The translations under genes and the position numbers were made by a program. From Clostridiales bacterium (lineage in GTDB: Bacteria; Bacillota; Clostridia; Lachnospirales; CAG-274): 39,940 nt of DNA. The notes below the pieces were generated by a model. That model was not told the origin of the DNA and ran no database searches. It worked only from the letters and a program-made list of their open reading frames with translations. Each line of letters starts with the position of its first letter. Position 1 is the first letter of the stretch. Below are positions 1-13,713 of the stretch, piece after piece. The stretch lies in contig JAJQFU010000032.1 in the NCBI GenBank assembly GCA_021200955.1, positions 1 through 39,940 of the forward strand. Reading direction: 5' to 3'.

Positions 1-27
1 AAATTGTGATGTATTTATTAAAAATTA

Positions 28-251: not shown

Positions 252-3200
252 ATGAAGCGAAAAACAATACGCATAATCAGTGCGGTAATTGCGGTTGTTA
301 TGGCGGTTTCAACAATCGTTTATGTAAATGCCGATGAACAGGGCGGCTTGCTGACAGAGCTGCTTGAAGAATATGCCGGAAGCGAAGATTCGGCTGTTTC
401 CGATTCTGCTGTGGAAGCGGAAATCTCTTCTCCCTCAGGCACAGAAACCGACGAACAAGAAAACGGAAATAATTTTTCTGAAAATGAAGCCGTATTAAAT
501 TCGGTTTCCAATACAGCGGAAACAATAATTTCAGCCGATTTGGCTGATAACGGCGAAGCTTTAATCTCCGGATATTGCGGAGATGAGGTTGAATATGTTC
601 TTTATGAAGACGGATCTCTTGTTATTTCCGGCTCGGGAGATATGTATAATTATGACAATTACAATGAGCCGCTTACTCCATGGTATGAAGAGTATATAAC
701 ATGGGACATAACCTCAATAACAATTGAAAGCGGAGTAACAAGCATAGGCGACAGTGCTTTTGAAGAGTGCGGCGCAGCGGAAAGCATTACCATAGCCGAC
801 ACAGTAACGAAAATAGGCGAGGGTGCATTCAGATACTGCGAATCTCTTCCGAGTATAATAATACCCGATTCCGTTACATATATCGGCGAATGGGCATTTG
901 AATGCTGTGAATGGCTTGAAAGCGTAACTCTTTCGGAAAACTTGGAAGGAATAACCTACGGTATGTTTGCCGAATGTTATTCGCTTAAAAGCTGTAAAAT
1001 ACCCGATTCTGTTACGTATATTGACGAATGGGCATTTGAAGGCTGTGAATCTCTTGAAACAATAACCATTCCGGCATCGGTAACAGCCATAGGCGAAGGC
1101 GCTTTTGACGGAGCAGGGCTTTTGACGGTTTACTGCTATGAAAATTCAGCGGCTGATAATGCTGATTATTACCCTGACGATACGGAAATTATTTATATTG
1201 AAGAAGGTGCCGAAACAGGCTCCTGCGGCGACAATGTTACATATACGCTGTATGAAAGCGGAACCCTTATAATTTCCGGCGAGGGCGATATGTATGACTT
1301 CGTCTTTGAGGGTGATGACGACAGCGAGTTTGTTTATGCTCCGTGGAATCCCGATATCGAAAACAATACGATTAAAACAGTTGTTATTTCAGAGGGAGTA
1401 ACAAGCATAGGAAATTATGCTTTCTGTTATTGCTATGGTATAACCTCTGTATCACTTCCTTCAACATTAACCCGTATAGGCGATTATGCTTTTGGCTGGT
1501 GTGAATCAGTGCCTAAAATAGATTTGCCCGAATCATTAACAGATATAGGTCAATATGCATTTTGGGGCTGTGAATCACTGACAAGCATATCAATTCCCCA
1601 GGGAGTAACATCTATAGATGACTTTACATTTTTATATTGTGAATCGCTTACAAGTGTGGATCTTCCAACATCTTTAACATCTATCGGCTTGTGGGCGTTC
1701 GGCAGCTGCTATGCTCTTCCCGAAATATACATACCGGGAACAGTCACCGAAATAGGCGATTATGCCTTTTCATACTGCACTGCTTTAACAAGCATAACCA
1801 TTCCTTCAAGCGTAACCTCTATAGGCAGCAGCGCCTTCTATAAGAGCGGTCTGAAAACAGTTTACTGCCCTGAAGGTTCTGTTGCAGATGACTCAACCCT
1901 TTATCCCGAAGGAACGGAAATTATTAATGCAGAATATTTAGCATACGGCTCCTGCGGAGATAATGCTGAATATACATTAACAAGCGACGGTGTTCTTACA
2001 ATATCCGGCACGGGAGAAATTACCGAATATACAGACGATATATATTATCCTTGGGCGGATTACAACAGCTTCATTACGTCAATTGTTATTGAAGACGGTA
2101 TAACAAATACGGGTGTTCTTGCATTCTACGGCTGCACTTCATTAAAGAGCGTAAGCCTCGGAGCAGACGTAACATCTATAGCCAGAGCGGCATTTTCAAC
2201 CTGTTCCGCTCTTGAAAGCATAACCATGCCCGAGGGATTAACCTCTATAGGTGCTTCTGCCTTCTGGGGAACGGCTCTTAAGAGTGTAACTCTTCCCGAA
2301 ACTCTGGAGACATTAAGCAGTGCTGCATTTTATAACTGTGCATCTCTGGAAAGTATAAACATACCGGAATCTCTTACTTATTTAAACGACAGTATATTCT
2401 GCAACTGTACCTCCCTTAAGAGTATAACCATTCCTCCGACTGTAAAGAGTATAAGCAGCTCGGCCTTCAACAGCAGCGGTTTAACTGCGGTATACTGTTA
2501 TAAAAATTCCGTAGCAGACAATTCAAACCTTTACCCCGACGGAACGGAGCTTGTATATATAGGCGAAGCTGAAATTGAAGTACTGTATACGGGAAGCTGC
2601 GGAGATGATGCCGAATATACCTATTACAGCGACGGCTCACTTATAATATCCGGTACGGGAGCGATTAATGACTATAATTACACAACCGTACCTTGGTATT
2701 CCTACCGTTCAAATATTAAGTCTGTAACAGTCGAAAGCGGCATAACAAGCATAGGAACCTATGCACTCAGCGGCTTATCATCGGTGACAAGCATAGAGCT
2801 TCCCGATACTGTTACAACTATAGGCAATAGTGCTTTTTATGAGGACACCGCCCTTAAAGAGATAAGCATACCCGATTCCGTAACAGAAATAGGCAGAAGT
2901 GCATTTTCATATTGTACGGCTCTTCCCGAGATAACTATACCCGATTCTGTTACAACTATGGGAACCTCTGTATTTTGGTATTGCAGCTCTTTGACAAACG
3001 TAACATTGTCAAATTCGCTTACAGCTATAAGCAGTTATATGTTTTACGGCTGTTCATCACTGACGAGCATAACCATACCGGAATCGGTTTTAAGTATAAA
3101 CTATCAGGCATTTTATGAATGTACGGCTTTGGAAAGTGTAACAATTCCATACAATGTTTTAACTGTAAACACATCTGCTTTTTCTAACTGCAGCGGTTTA

Positions 3201-6200
3201 AAAACAGTTTACTGCTATGAGGGTTCATTTGCCGATAATTCAAGTCTTTATCCCGAGGGAGCAGAGCTTGTTTATATAGGCGACGCTTCCGATAAAATTG
3301 CCGTTTCCGGAAGCTGCGGAGATGAAGCGGAATATACTTTATATGCCGACGGAACACTGGTGATATCCGGTGCGGGCAAAATGACAGACTTTGACGGTAC
3401 AAGCGCACCATGGTATTCCTACCGAAGTGCCGTAAAATCACTTGTTGTTGAAGAGGGAATAACAAGTATAGGGAAATACAGCTTTTATGGCTGTTCATCA
3501 CTTGCAAGTGTAGAAATAGCGGAAACAGTTGAATCTATAGGAATCAGAAGCTTCGACTCCTGTTCGGCATTAACAAGCATTGATATACCGAATTCTGTTA
3601 CAAGTATAGGCAATTACTGCTTCTATCACTGTACGGCTCTTGCTGATGTCAGTTTATCCGAATCACTTGAAACCATAGGCACATATGCTTTTGCTTACTG
3701 TGAAGCACTTCCGAGCGTAATAATACCCGACAGTGTAACATCATTGGGAGGAGATGCATTTTATTATTGCACTGCTTTGGCGGAGGTTCAGATTTCAAGC
3801 GGCTTGACTGAAATAAGCGAATATACATTCGGACGCACCGGTCTGACCGAGGTTATAATACCCGAGGGTGTAAAAACTATAGGAGACAGTGCTTTTAACA
3901 ACTGCAGCAGCTTAACAAAGATTACAATACCCAACACTGTTGAAACTATAGGCTCCGCAGTATTCAGATATTGTTCATCTCTTAAATCAATAGTAATACC
4001 CGACAGCGTAACAAGTATAAACGCTTATGTATTTGCAGACTGTACAGCTTTGGAACAGGTTGTATTATCAAATAATTTCGACTATGTATGGAATGAAGCC
4101 TTCTATAACTGTTCAAGTCTTAAAACACTTGTAATACCCGACAGTGTAAGGAATATAGGTCAGTATGCTTTTTCCGGCTGTACGGCTATGGAAAGTCTTT
4201 ACTTACCCGAGGGCATAACCTATATTATTGAGGATAGTATAAGCGGAATGTCTGAAAATGTAACAGTTTACTGTTATTCAAATACAAATGCTTATATATA
4301 TGCAGTAAATTTGGGATATAATGTATATGACCTCGGTGAACATGAGCACGAATATGAAAACTTTGCCACTACATTCAGCTGTACAGAACAGGGCTATGCA
4401 GGAAGAACCTGCTGGATCTGCGGATATACTGTTATAGATGAATATTTCGGCGGCGAAGGTCACCAATACGGCGACTGGGTTGTTGAAAGCGAAGCCACAA
4501 TTTTCAGCGAAGGTTATAAATACAGAGAATGTTCTGTCTGCGGTTACAAAGAAGAGGTTTATACCGACAAGATTGATGTTGACATAGAAACAGACGAAAA
4601 CTACGGTCTTGCAAACTTTACCGTAGTTGACGCAGGCACTCTTGAACCTATCAGCGGAGCTAAAATGCATATTACAACGGAAAACGACGGCGAAGGCACA
4701 GTTTACTGCGGAAGTGACGGAACGGCTTCTATTATACTTCCCGTAGGAAAACAGACTGTTACCGTTTCCGCCGACGGCTATGGCTCAAGAAGTCTGAATG
4801 TGACAATAGCTTCAGGCGAACAGAATATAGCAAAAATCGGTTTGGGAACAGGCTCCCTTGTTGAGGGCGTTCTTACGGTTGACGCTATGACCGATGAAGA
4901 AATTAAGAATGCGGGAATTGACGTTAATGCCGAGGACAATAACCAAATTTATAAATATACAGTAACATTTGAATTTGGCGAATATGAGGCATATTTCGAT
5001 TCGGAAGGCACAAACTACAGTTCTCCTCAAACCTTCTATGACGGAGATACTCCCGTAAAGGTTACCGCCCTTTCCGAAAACTTCTACCTTGTTATAACAG
5101 GCGAGGTTAAATGGCTTAAGGAAATGTTTGACGTTCAGCTTCTTGTTATAAACAATTCGGCTACCGACACAATTGAGGATTGTACAGCTGAGCTGGTTCT
5201 TCCCGAAGGAATGTCTCTTGCAGATTTGACAGAGGGCGAACAAAGCCTTGTTCAGACAATAGACTATGTTGAAGAGGGCGGAACGGACGAACTTCACTGG
5301 TATGTCAGAGGAGACGAAGAGGGAGAATATGACTTGACTGCCAAGCTTGAGGGCTTGCTTATGCCCTTCGAAGAAAGCTTCAGCTATGAATATACTACCG
5401 ATGAGCCTGTAAAGGTTTATGCAGGCAGCGCTCTCCAAATGACAATTAAGGCTCCCGGCGCAACATATTATAATGACGATTATACTGTTACACTGGAGCT
5501 TGAAAATGTTTCCGACAAATCTATCTATAATCTGACTCATACAATAACAAGCCTTGAACAGTTTAAGGCAGTTACCTATTCAGGGGGCTATATTATAGAA
5601 GAAGCCTATGTTGATACTGACCTCGATAAGGTAACGGTAACAACATATGATGAGGAAGGAAAAATTGTTGACGAGTCCGAGACGACTGTTGACACCTATG
5701 TAATAGGCTCTGCTTCTGCAGGCGAGCTTAAGCCCGGCGACAAGATAGTTATTGAAGTGACATCAAACATTATGTTTGAAGGCGGCAGATTAACAGCAAA
5801 GGGCGCAGAGCTTGTTGAGCAGATAGAAGAGGCTCAGAAGATTTTGGATGCTTATAATGCTGCTGCGGACGGAAATGAAATTCTCAACACAGCCTACAAT
5901 ATGCTTGCTGCGGCTCAGACCAATATGAACGCAGCGGCTTTAAGCGGCACAAAGGGAGAGGCTTATTCTTCGCTTTTGACAGCTGTAAATCAGCTTTTGG
6001 ATATAATTTCCACAGGCAGCAGCACAGCCTTAGAGACGGTCTCAAGGCTTGAAAAAGCGGGAATTTATTCGGTTCTTTATGAAATCTCTCAGGATTCTTC
6101 ATATTATGAAAACCATACCGAGGACGAAATAAATTCTTATCTTAAGGTTATGGACGCAATTTTAAGAAGCTGCAGCGATGAAGAATTTGAAACCTACAGT

Positions 6201-7409
6201 GTTTTCAACATTCTTAAGGCAACAGCGGAGTCAATACCCTTAAGATTTATATTAAAAGATGTTTTCGTAAATACTCTTGAAGGCTCAACAACTGAAATTC
6301 CATATGTTATAGAAGTGACGGCAGGCGATTATCCTGTTTCATTCAGTGTCAGTGCAGTGGGCAGCTATCTCTATGATATTCTTTATTCCGCTATGGGCAG
6401 CGATGTACCCAGATATGTTGATATTTTCGGAGGAGAAACTTCGGGCTATGACGATGTTGTTCAGCATATAATTATGAAGCAAAACAGCACGTCTACTCTT
6501 GCGGCTGAATCGGCAACGGGCAACGCAGCCTTCAGGGCTTGGGTTGAAACCGCCGACGGAAGTATAAGTTCGGCTTTCACCCTTACTTCAGACAATGAAA
6601 CGGCAGCGGTCAGCGGCGGTGTTCTCAGCTTTACGGGCTCGGGCTTCATAAGTGCGGTTCCTTCGGCATCTGAAGGCGGAACGCTTTATGTAGAAGCAAC
6701 CGAAAACGGCGAAACAGATGTAAAGACTTATGAAATTGACGTTGTTTCAGACCATACCTGTTCGGGCGAATGGGAAGCTGTTGTGGAACCTACGGAGGAA
6801 GCTGACGGCTATATGGTTAAGGTCTGCGATACCTGCGGAGACATAATCGATATTAAGACAACTAGTCTCTGCGACAGCCACAGCTTCGGTGAATATGAAA
6901 TTATTTCGGAAGCAAGCGAAACAGAGTACGGACTTAAGGTCAGAACCTGTGAAAACTGCGGCTATACAGAATATTCCGTAATTAAAACAACAAATATTCT
7001 TGAGCTTACGGAAGAAAGCGAATTGACCATTGACAGCGGCAGCAGCTATGTTGTAGGAACGGAAGCAAAGGTATTAATATCCGACTTTATGGAGAACTTC
7101 GAAAACGACAATATTGTTATTTATGACAATAAGGGTGTTGAGGTTACGGATTTAAGCGGATATATAGGCACCGGCTTTGTAATTCAGAATGTTTATCAAA
7201 ATGAAGTGACGGATCAGCTGATTGTGGTTATTAAAGGCGAGCTGAACAGCGACGGCGTCAGAAATGTTCTCGATTTGGCAAGGCTCTTTGACCATATTCA
7301 GTCGGCGGAGATTTTAGACGGATATTATTTGGAAGCAGCTTATATGAACGGCGATGAAAAAATAGACGTTTTGGATCTTGCTTCACTGTTTGATGAGATT
7401 CAAAAATAA
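252..7409 (+). CDS. BspA-type leucine-rich-repeat secreted protein with C-terminal dockerin-like module
   Basis: A very large (2385 aa) secreted protein. Residues 1-27 form a signal peptide (MKRK, hydrophobic core, cleavage near VNA/DE). Five modules follow to about residue 1360. Each opens with a (S/Y)CGDxxxYTLYxDGxLxISGxG motif (near residues 105, 322, 565, 779 and 1019) and continues with tandem ~23-residue LRR_5 repeats of the form I-P-x-S-V-T-x-I-G-x-x-A-F-x-x-C. Then come two CxxC mini-modules (about 1376-1436), a carboxypeptidase-regulatory/PEGA-like beta domain (about 1452-1526), a long unassigned region, two more CxxC modules (about 2172-2240), and a duplicated dockerin-like segment (about 2329-2385, N-x-D-G-x-x-N-V-L-D-L-A then NGDEKIDVLDLA). 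No LPXTG or SLH anchor is visible. By family it is an adhesion or protein-binding surface protein; its ligand is unknown. The start follows AAGGAGGG with 6-nt spacing. Confidence 0.9.
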   Translation: MKRKTIRIISAVIAVVMAVSTIVYVNADEQGGLLTELLEEYAGSEDSAVSDSAVEAEISSPSGTETDEQENGNNFSENEAVLNSVSNTAETIISADLADNGEALISGYCGDEVEYVLYEDGSLVISGSGDMYNYDNYNEPLTPWYEEYITWDITSITIESGVTSIGDSAFEECGAAESITIADTVTKIGEGAFRYCESLPSIIIPDSVTYIGEWAFECCEWLESVTLSENLEGITYGMFAECYSLKSCKIPDSVTYIDEWAFEGCESLETITIPASVTAIGEGAFDGAGLLTVYCYENSAADNADYYPDDTEIIYIEEGAETGSCGDNVTYTLYESGTLIISGEGDMYDFVFEGDDDSEFVYAPWNPDIENNTIKTVVISEGVTSIGNYAFCYCYGITSVSLPSTLTRIGDYAFGWCESVPKIDLPESLTDIGQYAFWGCESLTSISIPQGVTSIDDFTFLYCESLTSVDLPTSLTSIGLWAFGSCYALPEIYIPGTVTEIGDYAFSYCTALTSITIPSSVTSIGSSAFYKSGLKTVYCPEGSVADDSTLYPEGTEIINAEYLAYGSCGDNAEYTLTSDGVLTISGTGEITEYTDDIYYPWADYNSFITSIVIEDGITNTGVLAFYGCTSLKSVSLGADVTSIARAAFSTCSALESITMPEGLTSIGASAFWGTALKSVTLPETLETLSSAAFYNCASLESINIPESLTYLNDSIFCNCTSLKSITIPPTVKSISSSAFNSSGLTAVYCYKNSVADNSNLYPDGTELVYIGEAEIEVLYTGSCGDDAEYTYYSDGSLIISGTGAINDYNYTTVPWYSYRSNIKSVTVESGITSIGTYALSGLSSVTSIELPDTVTTIGNSAFYEDTALKEISIPDSVTEIGRSAFSYCTALPEITIPDSVTTMGTSVFWYCSSLTNVTLSNSLTAISSYMFYGCSSLTSITIPESVLSINYQAFYECTALESVTIPYNVLTVNTSAFSNCSGLKTVYCYEGSFADNSSLYPEGAELVYIGDASDKIAVSGSCGDEAEYTLYADGTLVISGAGKMTDFDGTSAPWYSYRSAVKSLVVEEGITSIGKYSFYGCSSLASVEIAETVESIGIRSFDSCSALTSIDIPNSVTSIGNYCFYHCTALADVSLSESLETIGTYAFAYCEALPSVIIPDSVTSLGGDAFYYCTALAEVQISSGLTEISEYTFGRTGLTEVIIPEGVKTIGDSAFNNCSSLTKITIPNTVETIGSAVFRYCSSLKSIVIPDSVTSINAYVFADCTALEQVVLSNNFDYVWNEAFYNCSSLKTLVIPDSVRNIGQYAFSGCTAMESLYLPEGITYIIEDSISGMSENVTVYCYSNTNAYIYAVNLGYNVYDLGEHEHEYENFATTFSCTEQGYAGRTCWICGYTVIDEYFGGEGHQYGDWVVESEATIFSEGYKYRECSVCGYKEEVYTDKIDVDIETDENYGLANFTVVDAGTLEPISGAKMHITTENDGEGTVYCGSDGTASIILPVGKQTVTVSADGYGSRSLNVTIASGEQNIAKIGLGTGSLVEGVLTVDAMTDEEIKNAGIDVNAEDNNQIYKYTVTFEFGEYEAYFDSEGTNYSSPQTFYDGDTPVKVTALSENFYLVITGEVKWLKEMFDVQLLVINNSATDTIEDCTAELVLPEGMSLADLTEGEQSLVQTIDYVEEGGTDELHWYVRGDEEGEYDLTAKLEGLLMPFEESFSYEYTTDEPVKVYAGSALQMTIKAPGATYYNDDYTVTLELENVSDKSIYNLTHTITSLEQFKAVTYSGGYIIEEAYVDTDLDKVTVTTYDEEGKIVDESETTVDTYVIGSASAGELKPGDKIVIEVTSNIMFEGGRLTAKGAELVEQIEEAQKILDAYNAAADGNEILNTAYNMLAAAQTNMNAAALSGTKGEAYSSLLTAVNQLLDIISTGSSTALETVSRLEKAGIYSVLYEISQDSSYYENHTEDEINSYLKVMDAILRSCSDEEFETYSVFNILKATAESIPLRFILKDVFVNTLEGSTTEIPYVIEVTAGDYPVSFSVSAVGSYLYDILYSAMGSDVPRYVDIFGGETSGYDDVVQHIIMKQNSTSTLAAESATGNAAFRAWVETADGSISSAFTLTSDNETAAVSGGVLSFTGSGFISAVPSASEGGTLYVEATENGETDVKTYEIDVVSDHTCSGEWEAVVEPTEEADGYMVKVCDTCGDIIDIKTTSLCDSHSFGEYEIISEASETEYGLKVRTCENCGYTEYSVIKTTNILELTEESELTIDSGSSYVVGTEAKVLISDFMENFENDNIVIYDNKGVEVTDLSGYIGTGFVIQNVYQNEVTDQLIVVIKGELNSDGVRNVLDLARLFDHIQSAEILDGYYLEAAYMNGDEKIDVLDLASLFDEIQK

Positions 7410-7455: not shown

Positions 7456-7487
7456 GGGTACGGGCAGTTTTCTGTCCGTACCCTTTT
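7456..7487 (+). terminator. Rho-independent terminator after the LRR gene
   Basis: A 12-bp stem (GGGTACGGGCAG with CTGTCCGTACCC, one G-T pair) with a TTTT loop is followed by TTTTATATT. It lies 46 bp after the stop codon. The convergent A-rich side is weak, so it probably works on the + strand only. Confidence 0.88.
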
Positions 7488-7564: not shown

Positions 7565-7630
7565 TTTACAGGAAATTATAAATCATTTTACCTTTCTTTG
7601 GTAGAAGCAAAAAAAATATGACTGTATAAT
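7565..7630 (+). promoter_or_regulatory. Pho-box-like activator site and promoter of the alkaline phosphatase operon
   Basis: Four hexamers are spaced at exactly 11 bp: TTTACA 7565, TTATAA 7576, TTTACC 7587, TTGGTA 7598. A TATAAT -10 box follows at 7625-7630, and no acceptable -35 lies 17 bp upstream of it. In Bacillus subtilis, PhoP binds tandem TT(A/T/C)ACA hexamers with about 5-bp gaps and replaces a weak -35. The pattern fits that model and precedes a phosphatase gene. The regulator itself is not in this window. Confidence 0.7.
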
Positions 7631-7694
7631 AAGACACATTAAGACATATAGAAAGGGCATATTTTTATGCCGGTTATCAGGAGGTAAAATTATT

Positions 7695-9320
7695 ATGAAG
7701 TATATGAAAAAGAAGATGCTGTCTTTAGGCATTATAACAGCTGTGCTCGCAGGAACCTTATCCTGCACGGGCTGTTCCGGAAGCGGCAGTACGGCTTCGG
7801 TTTCGGACGAAACAGAGCAGACGGAAACAGCGGAAGCCGCAGAGAACACCCCGAAGTATATATTCCTGTTTATAGGCGACGGTATGAGCTACCCTCAAAT
7901 TCAGCTTACAAATTATTTTGTCAGTGCAAATGATTCCGCCGAAAAAGGAAAAACCGTAAATGTCGAGGGAGAAGAAACAGACGTGCTTCAAAGCGAAAGC
8001 CACCTTACTATGATGGATTTTGAAACAGCAGGTTCAGCCCAAACCTATGACAGTACATCATTTGCTCCCGACTCCGCTTCAACCGCTACATCTATAGCAA
8101 CCGGAAACAAAACATGGAGCGGCAGCATAAACGTAAGTCTTGATTATTCAGAAAAATATGAAACCATAGCCGAAAAGCTGAAGGCTCAAAAGGATTATAA
8201 AATAGGCGTTGTTTCAAGCGTAAACTTAAACCACGCTACACCTGCCGCCTTCTATGCTCATCAGAAATCCAGAAACAGCTATTACGACATAGGTCTTGAG
8301 CTTATAGACAGCGGTTTCGACTATTTTGCAGGCGGCGGACTTTTAAAGCCCACAGGAGCAGATGAAGATCAGGAAAATCTTTATACACTTGCGGAAGAAG
8401 CCGGCTATAAGGTTTTAACAACACAGGCTGAGGCAGAAGCCCTTACAGCCGATGACGGAAAGGCTATAGTTATAGACGAACATCTTGCAGACAGCTCGGC
8501 TATGGCTTATGACATAGACAGAGAAGAAGGTCAGTGGGGTCTTTCAGACTATGTTGAAAAGGGCATAGAGGTTTTGGATAATGACGATACAGGCTTCTTT
8601 ATGATGGTTGAAGGCGGAAAAATCGACTGGGCGTGCCACGCAAACGATGCCGCTACGGTAATACAGGATACAATAGCTCTTGACGAAGCCGTAGCCAAAG
8701 CAGTGGATTTTTATAACAGCCACCCTGACGAAACTCTTATTCTTGTTACAGGCGACCACGAAACCGGCGGCCTTACAATAGGCTTCGAAGGAACCGACTA
8801 TGACACCTTCCTTACCAATTTTAACAATCAGAAGGTTTCCTTTACAAATTTTGACGACAACTATGTTGCAGGCTACAAAGAAAACAAAACTGACTTTGAC
8901 GCTGTAATGGCTGACGTAACCGAGCTTTTCGGTCTTGTTCCTCCCGACGGATCCGCCGCTTCGGCTTCTCAAAAGGACAGCGTCGACCTCCACCCCGAAT
9001 CGGATAATGACGGAACACTTGTTATGACAGAATATGAATACGGAAAGCTGAAAGCCGCATATGAAGAAACTCTTTCGAGAACAGGCGACGAAGAGGAATT
9101 TGAACAGCAGGAATATGAGCTTTACGGCAGCTATGAGCCTTTAACCGTAACCGTAAACCACATTTTGAACAACAAAAGCGGTGTAAGCTTCAGTTCCTAT
9201 GCCCATACGGGTCTGCCTGTAGAGGTTTTGGTAAAGGGTGTCGGTGCAGAAGACTTCCAAGGCTTTTATGACAACACTGACATTTATAAAAAGATGGCTC
9301 AGCTTACGGGGGTAATCTAA
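7695..9320 (+). CDS. phoA: Alkaline phosphatase, secreted lipoprotein
   Basis: A 541-aa phosphomonoesterase that releases phosphate outside the membrane. Residues 1-27 form a lipoprotein-like signal (basic start, hydrophobic core, LSCTGC). The metal-site motif FIGDGMS lies near residue 57. The nucleophile is in DSASTATS (Ser127), as in the DSAASA motif of E. coli PhoA. EGGKIDWACHAND and TGDHETGG carry the other metal ligands, and a late His occurs in SYAHTG. Length is near the family norm with a C-terminal extension. The start is preceded by AGGAGG. The upstream 11-bp-periodic hexamers suggest induction by phosphate starvation. The YibE/F gene begins 3 bp after the stop, so the two are almost certainly cotranscribed. 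Confidence 0.93.
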   Translation: MKYMKKKMLSLGIITAVLAGTLSCTGCSGSGSTASVSDETEQTETAEAAENTPKYIFLFIGDGMSYPQIQLTNYFVSANDSAEKGKTVNVEGEETDVLQSESHLTMMDFETAGSAQTYDSTSFAPDSASTATSIATGNKTWSGSINVSLDYSEKYETIAEKLKAQKDYKIGVVSSVNLNHATPAAFYAHQKSRNSYYDIGLELIDSGFDYFAGGGLLKPTGADEDQENLYTLAEEAGYKVLTTQAEAEALTADDGKAIVIDEHLADSSAMAYDIDREEGQWGLSDYVEKGIEVLDNDDTGFFMMVEGGKIDWACHANDAATVIQDTIALDEAVAKAVDFYNSHPDETLILVTGDHETGGLTIGFEGTDYDTFLTNFNNQKVSFTNFDDNYVAGYKENKTDFDAVMADVTELFGLVPPDGSAASASQKDSVDLHPESDNDGTLVMTEYEYGKLKAAYEETLSRTGDEEEFEQQEYELYGSYEPLTVTVNHILNNKSGVSFSSYAHTGLPVEVLVKGVGAEDFQGFYDNTDIYKKMAQLTGVI

Positions 9321-9323
9321 AAT

Positions 9324-10463
9324 ATGTTAAAAGGGATTTTTTATAAAAATTCTCCCTTTTTGCTGATTCTGACAGGTATTATTTTTGTTGGCATCCTCTT
9401 CCTGGTTCCTACAGGCTATGAGGATGCCAAAATTTATGAGGACGCAGAAAGGGTTAAAGCAGAGGTTATATCTGTTGACAACTCGGCAGTAAAAAGCTCG
9501 GGGCTTATTAAATCAGGCGAACAAAGCTGTGTTGTTATTGTAAAAAAAGGCATTTTTAAGGGCAGAGAGATTGAAGCCGTCAATTTTTTAAGCGGCTCTT
9601 TGGAACAGGACAAAATTTTTGAGGCAGGCGACAGCTGCCTTGTTACAATTTCATATGAAGGTGAAAATATAACCTCCTGCATTATGTCGGATCATTACAG
9701 GCTGGATAAGGAAGCTCTTCTGCTGATTCTGTTTTTTGCCCTGCTTATAGCCTTTGCGGGGAAAAACGGTTTTTTGGCAATTCTCTCATTTGTAATAACT
9801 ATAATGACTCTTTGGAAGATACTCGTTCCCGCATATTTAAACGGCGTAAACCCCGTATGGCTGGGAATGGGAATAACTCTTCTTTTAACCTGTATTATCA
9901 TATTTTTCGTCTACGGCTTCGACATAAAGACACTTTGCGGAGTTTTGGGCTCTTTTTTGGGCATATTTACAACCTGCATAATGGGCATAATATTTACAGA
10001 TTTGTTTAAGATACACGGCGCCGTTATGTCAAATTCAGAAACGCTGTTATACAGCGGCTATCAAAACCTTAACCTGACCTCCGTTTTTATGAGCAGCATT
10101 TTTATAGGGGCTTCAGGGGCAATGATGGATTTGGCAGTGGACATAACCTCGGCGGTAAACGAGGTTGTAGAGAAAAAGCCGGAGATTAAGTGGAGAGAAG
10201 CCGCCCGTTCGGGAATGAACGTAGGCAGAGCCGCAATGGGCACAATGACAACAACTCTTCTGTTAGCCTATTCCGGCAGCTATATAGCCCTGCTTATGGT
10301 TTTTATGGCTCAGGGAACCCCCATAGACCATATTTTAAACTACAAATATGTTTCGGCGGAAATTCTCGACACAATAACCGGCAGCTTCGGGCTTGTTACC
10401 GTAGCTCCCTTTACCGCCGCCGTATCCGGTATTCTTCTTACTAAGAAAAAGGCGAAGGGCTGA
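9324..10463 (+). CDS. YibE/F family integral membrane protein
   Basis: A 379-aa polytopic membrane protein. One membrane segment lies near residues 13-30, followed by a soluble extracytoplasmic region of about 100 residues rich in beta-type sequence. About seven further membrane helices run from residue 130 to the end, with the conserved small-residue stretch FIGASGAMMDLAVDI and a following E(V/K)-rich loop with R-G-M-N-x-G-R typical of YibE/F. The biochemical role of the family is not established. Here it lies 3 bp behind the phosphatase gene and uses a GGGGG Shine-Dalgarno inside the end of that gene, so it should share phosphate control. No terminator is visible after it. Confidence 0.88.
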   Translation: MLKGIFYKNSPFLLILTGIIFVGILFLVPTGYEDAKIYEDAERVKAEVISVDNSAVKSSGLIKSGEQSCVVIVKKGIFKGREIEAVNFLSGSLEQDKIFEAGDSCLVTISYEGENITSCIMSDHYRLDKEALLLILFFALLIAFAGKNGFLAILSFVITIMTLWKILVPAYLNGVNPVWLGMGITLLLTCIIIFFVYGFDIKTLCGVLGSFLGIFTTCIMGIIFTDLFKIHGAVMSNSETLLYSGYQNLNLTSVFMSSIFIGASGAMMDLAVDITSAVNEVVEKKPEIKWREAARSGMNVGRAAMGTMTTTLLLAYSGSYIALLMVFMAQGTPIDHILNYKYVSAEILDTITGSFGLVTVAPFTAAVSGILLTKKKAKG

Positions 10464-10533
10464 AAAAACTGTCATTTATGAAAAAAATCATTTTGAAACC
10501 GCCGAAAAAAGCAAACCCTCAAAGTCTCTTTTT

Positions 10534-10599
10534 TTATCATATATTTTACAAGATATTTACATTTATATGATATCGGAAAATTTTTATGTGTTGTATTAT
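10534..10599 (+). promoter_or_regulatory. Second Pho-box-like site and promoter, upstream of corA-ppk
   Basis: Hexamers TTATCA 10534, TTTACA 10545, TTTACA 10556 and ATGATA 10567 again repeat at exactly 11 bp. A TATTAT -10 box starts at 10594. The offsets from the -10 box (60, 49, 38 and 27 bp) are identical to those upstream of the alkaline phosphatase gene. The two middle hexamers match the Bacillus PhoP consensus best. The shared geometry is seen in the sequence; the regulator's identity is inferred. Confidence 0.65.
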
Positions 10600-10644: not shown

Positions 10645-10689
10645 GTGAAAAATGATTTATCAGCTTGGAAGTCAGCTTCGGGAAACTAA
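10645..10689 (+). CDS. Possible 14-codon leader ORF overlapping the corA start
   Basis: A GTG at 10645 lies 7 nt after the only good Shine-Dalgarno (AGAAGGG, 10631-10637). It opens a 14-codon frame (MKNDLSAWKSASGN) that ends at TAA 10687-10689, inside corA. The annotated corA ATG at 10652 is 14 nt from the same Shine-Dalgarno, which is longer than usual. This may be translational coupling or a leader peptide, or simply an unusual start. There is no protein-level evidence. Confidence 0.22.
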   Translation: MKNDLSAWKSASGN

Positions 10690-11563
10690 TCTTGAAACTG
10701 TTATTAAAAACGGAGACTCCGCAGTTATTGTTACAAATGAAAACAAATATCCTTATATTTTAAAAGCTTTGGGAATTCAGGCGGAGGTAGATGTTTCCTT
10801 AACGGAAATTTTTTTCTGCAAGCTGGAAAGTCAGCCGGAGTGTCTTTACGGAACGCTTTCCATACCGCCGCTTTTGGATGTTTTGGGTGAGTGCTATCAA
10901 ATTGCATATATTGTTACTGCAAAATATGTAGTGCTTATAGACAACGGAGCCTTTGCCTCCCGTCTTATTAACAGAATAAGAACAAGAAAGGTTCATCAGG
11001 GAGAGACAAGAGAGCGTTTTTTATCCAATTTTATTGCAGAATTTATTTCAAGAGACGCCGAAGTTTTGGAGGGCTATGAAAACACCCTTATGGAAATGGA
11101 AGACGAAGCCTCAAAGGGAATTGAAGAACACTTTCAAAGCAGGCTTCAGCCTGTCAGAAAACAGCTTTTAACCCTTCGCAGCTATTATGACCAGCTTACG
11201 GATATGACCCGTGAGCTTGAAGAAAACGAAGACCGCTACTTTGCCAAAAAGCAGCTTAAATATTTCGGAACGGCAGCCGACAGAGCGGAACGCCTTAAAG
11301 ACAGAACAGGCTATCTTTTGGAATATGCAAGACAGGTAAGAGACGCTTATCAGGCTTTGGTTGACGCCAAGCAAAATGAAAATATGAAATTTCTGACAAT
11401 TGTTTCAACAATATTTTTTCCGCTGACACTGATTACAGGGTGGTATGGAATGAATTTTGAAAATATGCCGGAGCTGAAAACAGGTTATCCCGTTATTATT
11501 TTGGTCAGCTTGGCTGTTATTATAGTCTGCCTTCTTATTTTCAAAAAGAAGAAAATACTATAA
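10652..11563 (+). CDS. corA: CorA-family divalent-cation (magnesium) transporter
   Basis: A 303-aa pentameric Mg2+ channel-type transporter of the plasma membrane. The N-terminal two thirds is the soluble alpha/beta funnel with a long charged stalk helix (about residues 130-240). Two C-terminal membrane helices follow (about 247-266 and 278-297). The selectivity signature YGMN sits right after the first helix (WYGMNFENMPEL). The protein ends in the usual basic tail (FKKKKIL). The start is uncertain because the Shine-Dalgarno is 14 nt away and fits an overlapping GTG better. It lies 26 bp before ppk, so the two form an operon. Mg2+ is the counter-ion and cofactor of polyphosphate synthesis, which makes the pairing sensible. 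The substrate could also be Co2+ or Ni2+. Confidence 0.9.
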   Translation: MIYQLGSQLRETNLETVIKNGDSAVIVTNENKYPYILKALGIQAEVDVSLTEIFFCKLESQPECLYGTLSIPPLLDVLGECYQIAYIVTAKYVVLIDNGAFASRLINRIRTRKVHQGETRERFLSNFIAEFISRDAEVLEGYENTLMEMEDEASKGIEEHFQSRLQPVRKQLLTLRSYYDQLTDMTRELEENEDRYFAKKQLKYFGTAADRAERLKDRTGYLLEYARQVRDAYQALVDAKQNENMKFLTIVSTIFFPLTLITGWYGMNFENMPELKTGYPVIILVSLAVIIVCLLIFKKKKIL

Positions 11564-11589: not shown

Positions 11590-13713
11590 ATGGATTCTGA
11601 AGTAAACACACAATATACACAGGACAGAGAGCTTTCATGGCTTAAATTTAACGAAAGAGTTTTGGAAGAAGCCAAGGACGAAAGCGTCCCTCTTATGGAA
11701 AGGCTTAAATTTGCCGCAATATTTTCAAGTAATTTAGACGAATTTTTTATGATTAGGGTAGGCTCCCTTCATGATATGCGCCTTCTTAAAGAAACCCATA
11801 TTGACTGCCGTTCGGGAAAAACCCCTAAGGAACAGCTTCAGGATATTTTCAAAGCCCTTATTCCCCTTTATAAACAAAGAGATAAGGTTATGGACGAGCT
11901 TGAGTCAAGATGCCGCGCCTGCAATATCTGCCGTTTGGGCTTTGACGAACTGGACGAGAAGGCAAAAAAGCAAGCCGCCCAATGGTTTGAAAAGGAGGTA
12001 AAGCCCATACTTTCTCCCCAAATTGTAGACCTGCATAACCCCTTCCCCCATTTGCCCAACAAAGAGCTTGAAATAATTCTCTCTTTAAAACGCAATGACA
12101 AACAGCTTTTGGGAATTTTGCCCGTACCGGCTTCTCTGCCGCCTTTTCTGCGTTTGGAAGAGAGAGGAGTTCACTATATTTTAACAGAAGACATACTTTT
12201 GGAGTTTGCCGGAGAAATATTCAACCAGTTTACTATTTTAGACAAGGCGGTAATTTCCGTTACACGAAATGCAGATATTGCCCCTGAAGACGAAGCCTAT
12301 GACGTAGATATGGACTTCCGTCAGCATATGAAAAAAATAGTTAAAAAGAGAACGCGCCTGTGCCCCGTCCGTCTTGAAATTCAGGGAATGCTCAGCGAAA
12401 GCACTGTGGAAATTCTCAGCCGCTTTCTGTCTCTTCCTCATGAACAGATTTTCCTTACAAAATCACCTATTCATTTGGATTATCTCTTTAAGCTGGGAGA
12501 CCTGCTGCCCAAAGAAAGCGCCGCAGCCCTCTGCGACACTGCCTACACACCACGGTTTTCTCCCGAGCTTAACCCGAACGAAAAAATCATTCCCCAAATC
12601 GAGAAAAACGATGCACTGCTGTTTTATCCCTACGAATCTATGGAGCCCTTCCTTCGTATGATTTCGGAAGCGGCTCAGGACTCGGACGTTCTGTCTATTA
12701 AAATTACAATCTACCGTCTTGCTGCCAAAGCCAGACTGGCTGAATATTTGTGTGCTGCGGCGGAAAACGGAAAGCAGGTTGTGGTTCTTATGGAGCTTCG
12801 TGCCCGTTTTGACGAGAAAAACAACATAGAATGGGCGGAAAGACTGGAGGAGGCCGGCTGTACTATTCTTTACGGCTTCGAAGGAATTAAGGTTCATTCA
12901 AAGGTCTGCCTTATTACAAGAAGGGAACACAACAGAATTAAATATATAACCCAAATAGGAACAGGCAACTATAACGAAAAAACGGCAAAGCAGTATACCG
13001 ACCTTTGCTTAATGACGGCTAATCAGGAAATAGGCGAGGACGCGGCGCAGTTCTTCCAAAATATGGCTACGGCAAATCTGGGCGGAAAATACAAACAGCT
13101 TTTGGTTTCCCCCTTTGAGCTTAAAAACAGAGTTATAGCCTGTATCGACAGAGAAATCGAGAAAAAATCCGATGGCTACATCTTTCTTAAGCTTAATTCT
13201 CTTACAGACAGAAATATAATCGATAAGCTGGCTGAAGCATCGCAGGCAGGGGTTGAGGTTGTTATGAACATAAGAGGAATCTGCTGTCTTCTGCCGGGAA
13301 TTGAGGGTCTGACAGACAATATTAAGGTGTTTTCCATAGTAGGCAGATATTTGGAACACAGCCGTATATACTGCTTCGGAAGAGAACCGGACGCACTGCT
13401 TTACATATCCTCAGCGGATTTTATGACCAGAAACACAGAGCGCCGTGTTGAGGTGGGCTGCCCCGTTCTTGACAAAAAAACAAGAGCCCGCCTGTTCCAT
13501 ATTATAGACGAGCTTCAAAAGGACAATTTTAAGGCGAGGGTTATGAAGCCCGACGGAAGCTATCAAAGAAAAAAGGATTATAAAATGCCTGTAAGCTGTC
13601 AGGAAAATTTCCAAAAAGAGGAAATAATAAAGGGTATGGGAAGCCAAAAGGAACCGGCTCCCATAAGAAAAATAAAAAATTTTATATTTAAGTTTAAAGC
13701 AATTTTTTCATAA
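11590..13713 (+). CDS. ppk: Polyphosphate kinase 1
   Basis: A 707-aa enzyme that reversibly polymerises the gamma phosphate of ATP into inorganic polyphosphate. The N domain starts with RELSWLKFNERVLEEA and SNLDEFFMIRVG, hallmark PPK1 motifs. The two phospholipase-D-like catalytic domains are present. His436 in KVHSKVCLITRR corresponds to the autophosphorylated His435 of E. coli Ppk, and a second catalytic His is in YLEHSRIYCF. TQIGTGNYNEKTAKQYTDL is also typical. Length is normal. AGGAGG precedes the ATG. It is cotranscribed with corA from a Pho-box-like promoter, consistent with storing phosphate during or after limitation. A bidirectional terminator lies 73 bp beyond the stop. Confidence 0.97.
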   Translation: MDSEVNTQYTQDRELSWLKFNERVLEEAKDESVPLMERLKFAAIFSSNLDEFFMIRVGSLHDMRLLKETHIDCRSGKTPKEQLQDIFKALIPLYKQRDKVMDELESRCRACNICRLGFDELDEKAKKQAAQWFEKEVKPILSPQIVDLHNPFPHLPNKELEIILSLKRNDKQLLGILPVPASLPPFLRLEERGVHYILTEDILLEFAGEIFNQFTILDKAVISVTRNADIAPEDEAYDVDMDFRQHMKKIVKKRTRLCPVRLEIQGMLSESTVEILSRFLSLPHEQIFLTKSPIHLDYLFKLGDLLPKESAAALCDTAYTPRFSPELNPNEKIIPQIEKNDALLFYPYESMEPFLRMISEAAQDSDVLSIKITIYRLAAKARLAEYLCAAAENGKQVVVLMELRARFDEKNNIEWAERLEEAGCTILYGFEGIKVHSKVCLITRREHNRIKYITQIGTGNYNEKTAKQYTDLCLMTANQEIGEDAAQFFQNMATANLGGKYKQLLVSPFELKNRVIACIDREIEKKSDGYIFLKLNSLTDRNIIDKLAEASQAGVEVVMNIRGICCLLPGIEGLTDNIKVFSIVGRYLEHSRIYCFGREPDALLYISSADFMTRNTERRVEVGCPVLDKKTRARLFHIIDELQKDNFKARVMKPDGSYQRKKDYKMPVSCQENFQKEEIIKGMGSQKEPAPIRKIKNFIFKFKAIFS

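Follow-up and report, generated by a model that had tools for sequence, protein, structure and literature searches.

Candidate PhoP-type arrays at the alkaline phosphatase and corA-ppk promoters of an uncultured gut clostridium

The alkaline phosphatase gene (ALP) and the corA-ppk gene pair of a Clostridiales genome (G000; G001 to G008 are congeners) are preceded by promoters in which hexamers recur at identical distances from the -10 box, and the question is whether the two belong to a phosphate-starvation regulon. Both lie in the window, the whole stretch of 39,940 nucleotides that was analyzed. PhoP boxes of Bacillus subtilis are made up of TTnACA-like hexamers set in rows before pst, phosphatase and phoPR promoters devoid of a -35. 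The arrays described here are alike in their TTnACA-like hexamers, in the 11-bp period, and in residing before pst, phosphatase and phoPR promoters without a -35.

The window promoters and their genes

According to an earlier note on this DNA, the hexamers of both promoters start 60, 49, 38 and 27 bp upstream of the -10 box, and direct reading of the sequence finds these offsets at ALP (7565-7630) and corA-ppk (10534-10599) alike. Direct repeats with an 11-bp period are thus located 5' of the -10 box in both promoters, neither of which has a working -35 (the same note had remarked on the lack of a good one); a consensus scan of the + strand detected no TTGACA-16..18-TATAAT at either one. The -35 position is occupied by TAGAAG (7602-7607; 17-bp spacer to the -10) in the ALP promoter, and by TATCGG (10571-10576) in the corA-ppk promoter. 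The features of the region are as follows.

7456-7483, + strand: intrinsic-terminator-like hairpin and T-tract (12 pairs, 8 GC)
7565-7570, + strand: ALP half-site 1, TTTACA; kept in the G003 (TTTACG) and G004 orthologues
7576-7581, + strand: ALP half-site 2, TTATAA, weak (sequence reading, orthologue comparison)
7587-7592, + strand: ALP half-site 3, TTTACC; kept in G003 and G004 (TTTACT)
7598-7605, + strand: ALP fourth element, TTGGTAGA, TGRTAGA class; TGGTAGA in G003 and G004
7625-7630, + strand: ALP -10 box, TATAAT; TATAAT at equal distance in G003 and G004
7695-9320, + strand: alkaline phosphatase, putative lipoprotein or secreted protein (PF00245, E 4e-56)
9324-10463, + strand: YibE/F family membrane protein (PF07907, E 3e-79), 3 bp 3' of ALP
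10534-10539, + strand: corA-ppk half-site 1, TTATCA (sequence reading)
10545-10550, + strand: corA-ppk half-site 2, TTTACA; kept in G005 and G002
10556-10561, + strand: corA-ppk half-site 3, TTTACA; TTTACG in G005, TTTGCA in G002
10567-10574, + strand: corA-ppk fourth element, ATGATATC, TGRTAGA class; ATGCTA in G005, ATGGTA in G002
10594-10599, + strand: corA-ppk -10 box, TATTAT (sequence reading, orthologue comparison)
10652-11563, + strand: CorA-family divalent cation transporter, first gene of the corA-ppk unit (sequence match)
11590-13713, + strand: polyphosphate kinase 1 (ppk), second gene of the corA-ppk unit (TIGR03705, above cut-off)

Domain and family matches agree with the first naming of the controlled genes as alkaline phosphatase, CorA and polyphosphate kinase. 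The YibE/F gene is probably in one operon with ALP, the operon boundaries being predicted. The hairpin stands between the ALP unit and an upstream gene (252-7409) coding for a BspA-type leucine-rich-repeat surface protein of 2385 residues. An Rfam search of the window found no RNA family.

The array in this genome and in its relatives

The genome was scanned with R1, a sequence-only model derived from 14 register-locked promoters of congeners alone (alignment A1). The five best matches precede pstS (two arrays, A and B, E 1.2e-8 and 1.8e-8), ALP (4e-6), a Na/Pi cotransporter gene (9e-6) and corA-ppk (1e-5), the outcome for which a genome scan had been proposed; the window matches start at 7565 (ALP) and 10538 (corA-ppk). 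The following three, pfkA (0.003), a purple acid phosphatase gene (0.006) and a second phosphofructokinase gene (0.007), were absent from the training set, and noise begins at 0.1. As R1 was trained partly on orthologues of the top hits, the scan measures recovery and specificity, and the independent test of the window is a matrix free of ALP and corA sites (see below). All eight matches with E < 0.01 are located upstream of genes and outside long open frames, hence not within coding DNA, and matches are enriched at phosphate genes. The regulon cannot be termed "local", as in the earlier note, because R1 matches at pst, the Na/Pi cotransporter and other genes extend the set beyond the window to the whole genome.

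The pst genes reside on contig C101 in the order phoP, phoR, small ORF, pstS, pstC, pstA, pstB, phoU, and arrays are found there 5' of phoP, 3' of phoR and 5' of pstS. The phoP array (TTTACA/TTTACA/TTAACC/TTCACT, at 60/49/38/27 from TATAAG) has the register of the window promoters, so that phoPR and pst of this genome both carry arrays. The phoP promoter is poorly scored by R1 (E 1.3, partial match) because its fourth element differs. The best match of PhoP is PhoB (TIGR02154), those of PhoR are PnpS/PhoR models, all below the NCBIfam equivalog cut-offs; the assignment as a cognate PhoP/PhoB-like regulator and PhoR kinase, predicted from sequence, rests also on the pst neighbourhood.

Perfect hexamer pairs were noticed before genes for an aminotransferase (C50), a phosphoribosyltransferase (C87) and a metallo-beta-lactamase-fold protein (C94), and near a ChlI-like gene (C114). 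All of them lack a fourth element and the register, have noise-level or unlisted scores, and were discarded. A perfect TTTACA pair at nptA1 (C82) was not counted either; a conserved promoter of the sigma-A type stands 5' of it, and less closely related congeners lack the pair. For this reason a hexamer pair by itself has no diagnostic value. The nptA1 leader (L082, approximately 2320-2377) features TTAACC/TTTACA/TTTACA between the sigma-A promoter and the start codon in three close species, and is possibly a repressing PhoP site, or a chance run.

In orthologous ALP and corA promoters the array is kept while the flanks drift. In G001 and G005 the sequence 5' of ALP is dissimilar, yet TTTACC/TTTACA/CTTACA/AGGATA are found at 60/49/38/27 from TATAAT. 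In G002 and G003 the array precedes an operon for uptake and breakdown of 2-aminoethylphosphonate (PhnW and PhnX above the NCBIfam cut-offs). The corA and ppk genes of G002 (L155:13321-15903) are broken across several frames, being either pseudogenes or assembly errors, and their promoter array is intact.

Within the family, 18 of the 48 genomes scanned had matches, and these represent 5 of 11 genera. Ten of the 15 matches outside the genus precede PstS-like genes, the others phoP, pfkA, a phosphofructokinase gene of the second type, and genes for a HAD hydrolase and an unassigned secreted protein (Pfam was run for five of the 15 genes, the remaining ones being judged from the translated sequence). 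When 243 genomes sampled across the class were scanned, eleven matches fell outside the family. Purple acid phosphatase genes follow three of them, and a Na/Pi cotransporter, a PstS and a YibE/F gene one each; a seventh gene, devoid of a Pfam match, may be Ppx-like, and the remaining four matches are at seemingly unrelated genes or without a clear gene. Low-score class matches (one at an ArsP permease gene, one intragenic, two without a clear gene) were rejected as false positives.

Regulator, rival regulators and chance

Both window sites are in all likelihood activating PhoP-type arrays of the Pho regulon, induced by phosphate scarcity via the PhoPR pair of C101. Because the same array precedes phosphate-uptake and phosphate-scavenging genes here and in relatives, among them pstSCAB-phoU and phoPR of the same genome, the ALP and corA-ppk promoters very probably switch on when phosphate is short. 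In the mechanism proposed, scarce phosphate would lead the PhoR-like kinase to phosphorylate the PhoP/PhoB-like regulator encoded with pstSCAB-phoU. The regulator would bind as tandem subunits on one DNA face, contacting three TTTACA-type half-sites and a TGRTAGA element which overlaps the -35 position, and would bring sigma-A RNA polymerase to promoters whose -10 is good but which have no working -35. Alkaline phosphatase and the YibE/F membrane protein, as CorA and polyphosphate kinase, would thereby be induced. PhoP is the presumed binding protein in this scheme, and its role as activator is presumed as well.

The E. coli PhoB box consists of 11-bp direct repeats bound head-to-tail, and similar 11-nt repeat units are found in B. 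subtilis (PMC4415409). The arrays share with the PhoB box the 11-bp direct repeats before pst and phosphatase promoters, and differ from it in the sequence of the repeat (TTTACA, not CTGTCAT) and in being formed by three half-sites and a divergent fourth.

The main rival is a WalR/YycF-type regulator. The WalR/YycF box, TGTWAH-N5-TGTWAH, reads TTTACA-N5-TTTACA on the opposite strand, TGTAAA being the reverse complement of TTTACA, and the 6-5-6 geometry is the same. Contig C142 codes for a YycF-like response regulator (best NCBIfam match YycF), and TTTACA-N5-TATACA is located just 5' of its gene (L178:1100-1118). With respect to the promoter, however, the arrays are on the other strand and their direction is fixed, and the genes behind them are pst, phoPR, phosphatase, Na/Pi cotransporter and phosphonate genes; no gene for cell-wall hydrolysis was found among those preceded by annotated arrays. 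Moreover, three congeners (G006-G008) have related regulators, and neither a close phoPR nor a strong array was found in them. Reading of the arrays by WalR/YycF is accordingly improbable.

Less probable still is that the arrays are read by another member of the OmpR family with the same type of DNA binding. Regulators of this family commonly bind direct repeats spaced by roughly one turn of the helix, and G001 and G003 have arrays while a search of their assemblies revealed neither a close phoP nor a close phoR. These are, however, fragmented (about 340 and 370 contigs, respectively), and the array fronts phoP itself in G000, G002, G004 and G005, a regulator's array before its own gene being the usual sign of autoregulation.

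The match in register had been held unlikely to arise by chance. This stands when the array is considered as a whole, on the basis of matrix, model and conservation, but not for the hexamer pattern alone, which is not rare. The loose three-hexamer PhoP consensus is matched at 16 or more of 18 residues at 7 window places, and since these match three hexamers about equally well, hexamers alone are weak evidence. A hexamer-pair search used as sole criterion was set aside as too weak (815 matches with up to 2 mismatches vs. 670 in the reversed control). When at least 15 of 18 residues and a -10 box (at least 5 of 6) exactly 60 bp downstream are required, only the two window sites and one weaker place on the minus strand are left. 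The training set of a cross-validation matrix comprised sites at phoP, pst, the Na/Pi cotransporter, the purple acid phosphatase, pfkA and the phosphonate operon, with no ALP or corA site among them. Corresponding window scores peak at corA-ppk (10534; 31.4 bits) and ALP (7565; 26.3 bits), and the third-best position on both strands has 9.7 bits. With each family withheld in turn, the ALP, corA, pst, purple acid phosphatase and pfkA scores lie above those of all 322,328 null positions, and the phoP and Na/Pi cotransporter scores are each surpassed by two. Despite the 7 places matched by hexamers, mimicry by A/T-rich upstream DNA is a negligible explanation in view of the cross-validated ranks and score gaps, the E-values of the model, and the conservation of arrays in orthologous and non-orthologous promoters.

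The fourth element and unexpected members

The array had been described as a row of four hexamers. The positions of all four are correct, but the fourth (TTGGTA at 7598, ATGATA at 10567) does not fit TTnACA and belongs to a separate conserved element, TGRTAGA. In a comparison of 29 sites the third hexamer proved looser, and most sites have TGRTAGA, not TTTACA, as the fourth; alignment residues G35, T37, A38 and G39 of the element are conserved in 86-97% of sites. TAGAnR, within TGRTAGA, lies 17 bp before the -10, at the place of the -35 hexamer. Unlike the B. subtilis PhoP box, the array thus has three hexamers fitting TTnACA and TGRTAGA as the fourth. TGRTAGA may be where the final subunit of the regulator meets sigma region 4, and the promoter would therefore be activator-dependent. 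The fixed TGRTAGA at -35 is highlighted as an element whose role is open to promoter mutation.

Phosphofructokinases and YibE/F membrane proteins are among the unexpected members. The B. subtilis Pho regulon differs from the present set, in which ppk, phosphofructokinases and YibE/F are candidate members. The pfkA gene is found behind an array in G000, G001, G002, G003, G005 and in another genus. The second phosphofructokinase carries PKTIDND, which we take to be a PPi-type signature, and its array is weak in G000 and clearer in another genus (L177). The gene resides in an operon (L161:1046-5950, contig C5) in the order phosphofructokinase, ppx, second ppk, with the weak array 5', and G000 has accordingly two PPK1 enzymes, one from this operon and one from the corA-ppk unit.

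Tentatively, and with somewhat more doubt than trust, the clostridial Pho box may be pictured as three TTTACA half-sites plus TGRTAGA, the latter doubling as final contact of the regulator and non-canonical -35. Through this box phosphate starvation may also control entry into glycolysis (ATP-type pfkA; PPi-signature phosphofructokinase with ppx and the second ppk) and YibE/F membrane proteins. In a search of the open-access literature neither a TGRTAGA Pho element nor phosphofructokinase in a clostridial Pho regulon came up, which does not prove absence. The scanning model transfers across genera, and a predicted map of the phosphate-starvation response of uncultured gut Clostridia can be drawn from sequence data; polyphosphate synthesis, two phosphofructokinases and the uncharacterized YibE/F family appear tied to phosphate control.

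YibE/F genes recur by Pho arrays, in the ALP operon (9324-10463), divergent from a purple acid phosphatase gene (L162:3376-4479), and behind an array of their own in a distant clostridial family (L179). This recurrence suggests a phosphate-related membrane function.
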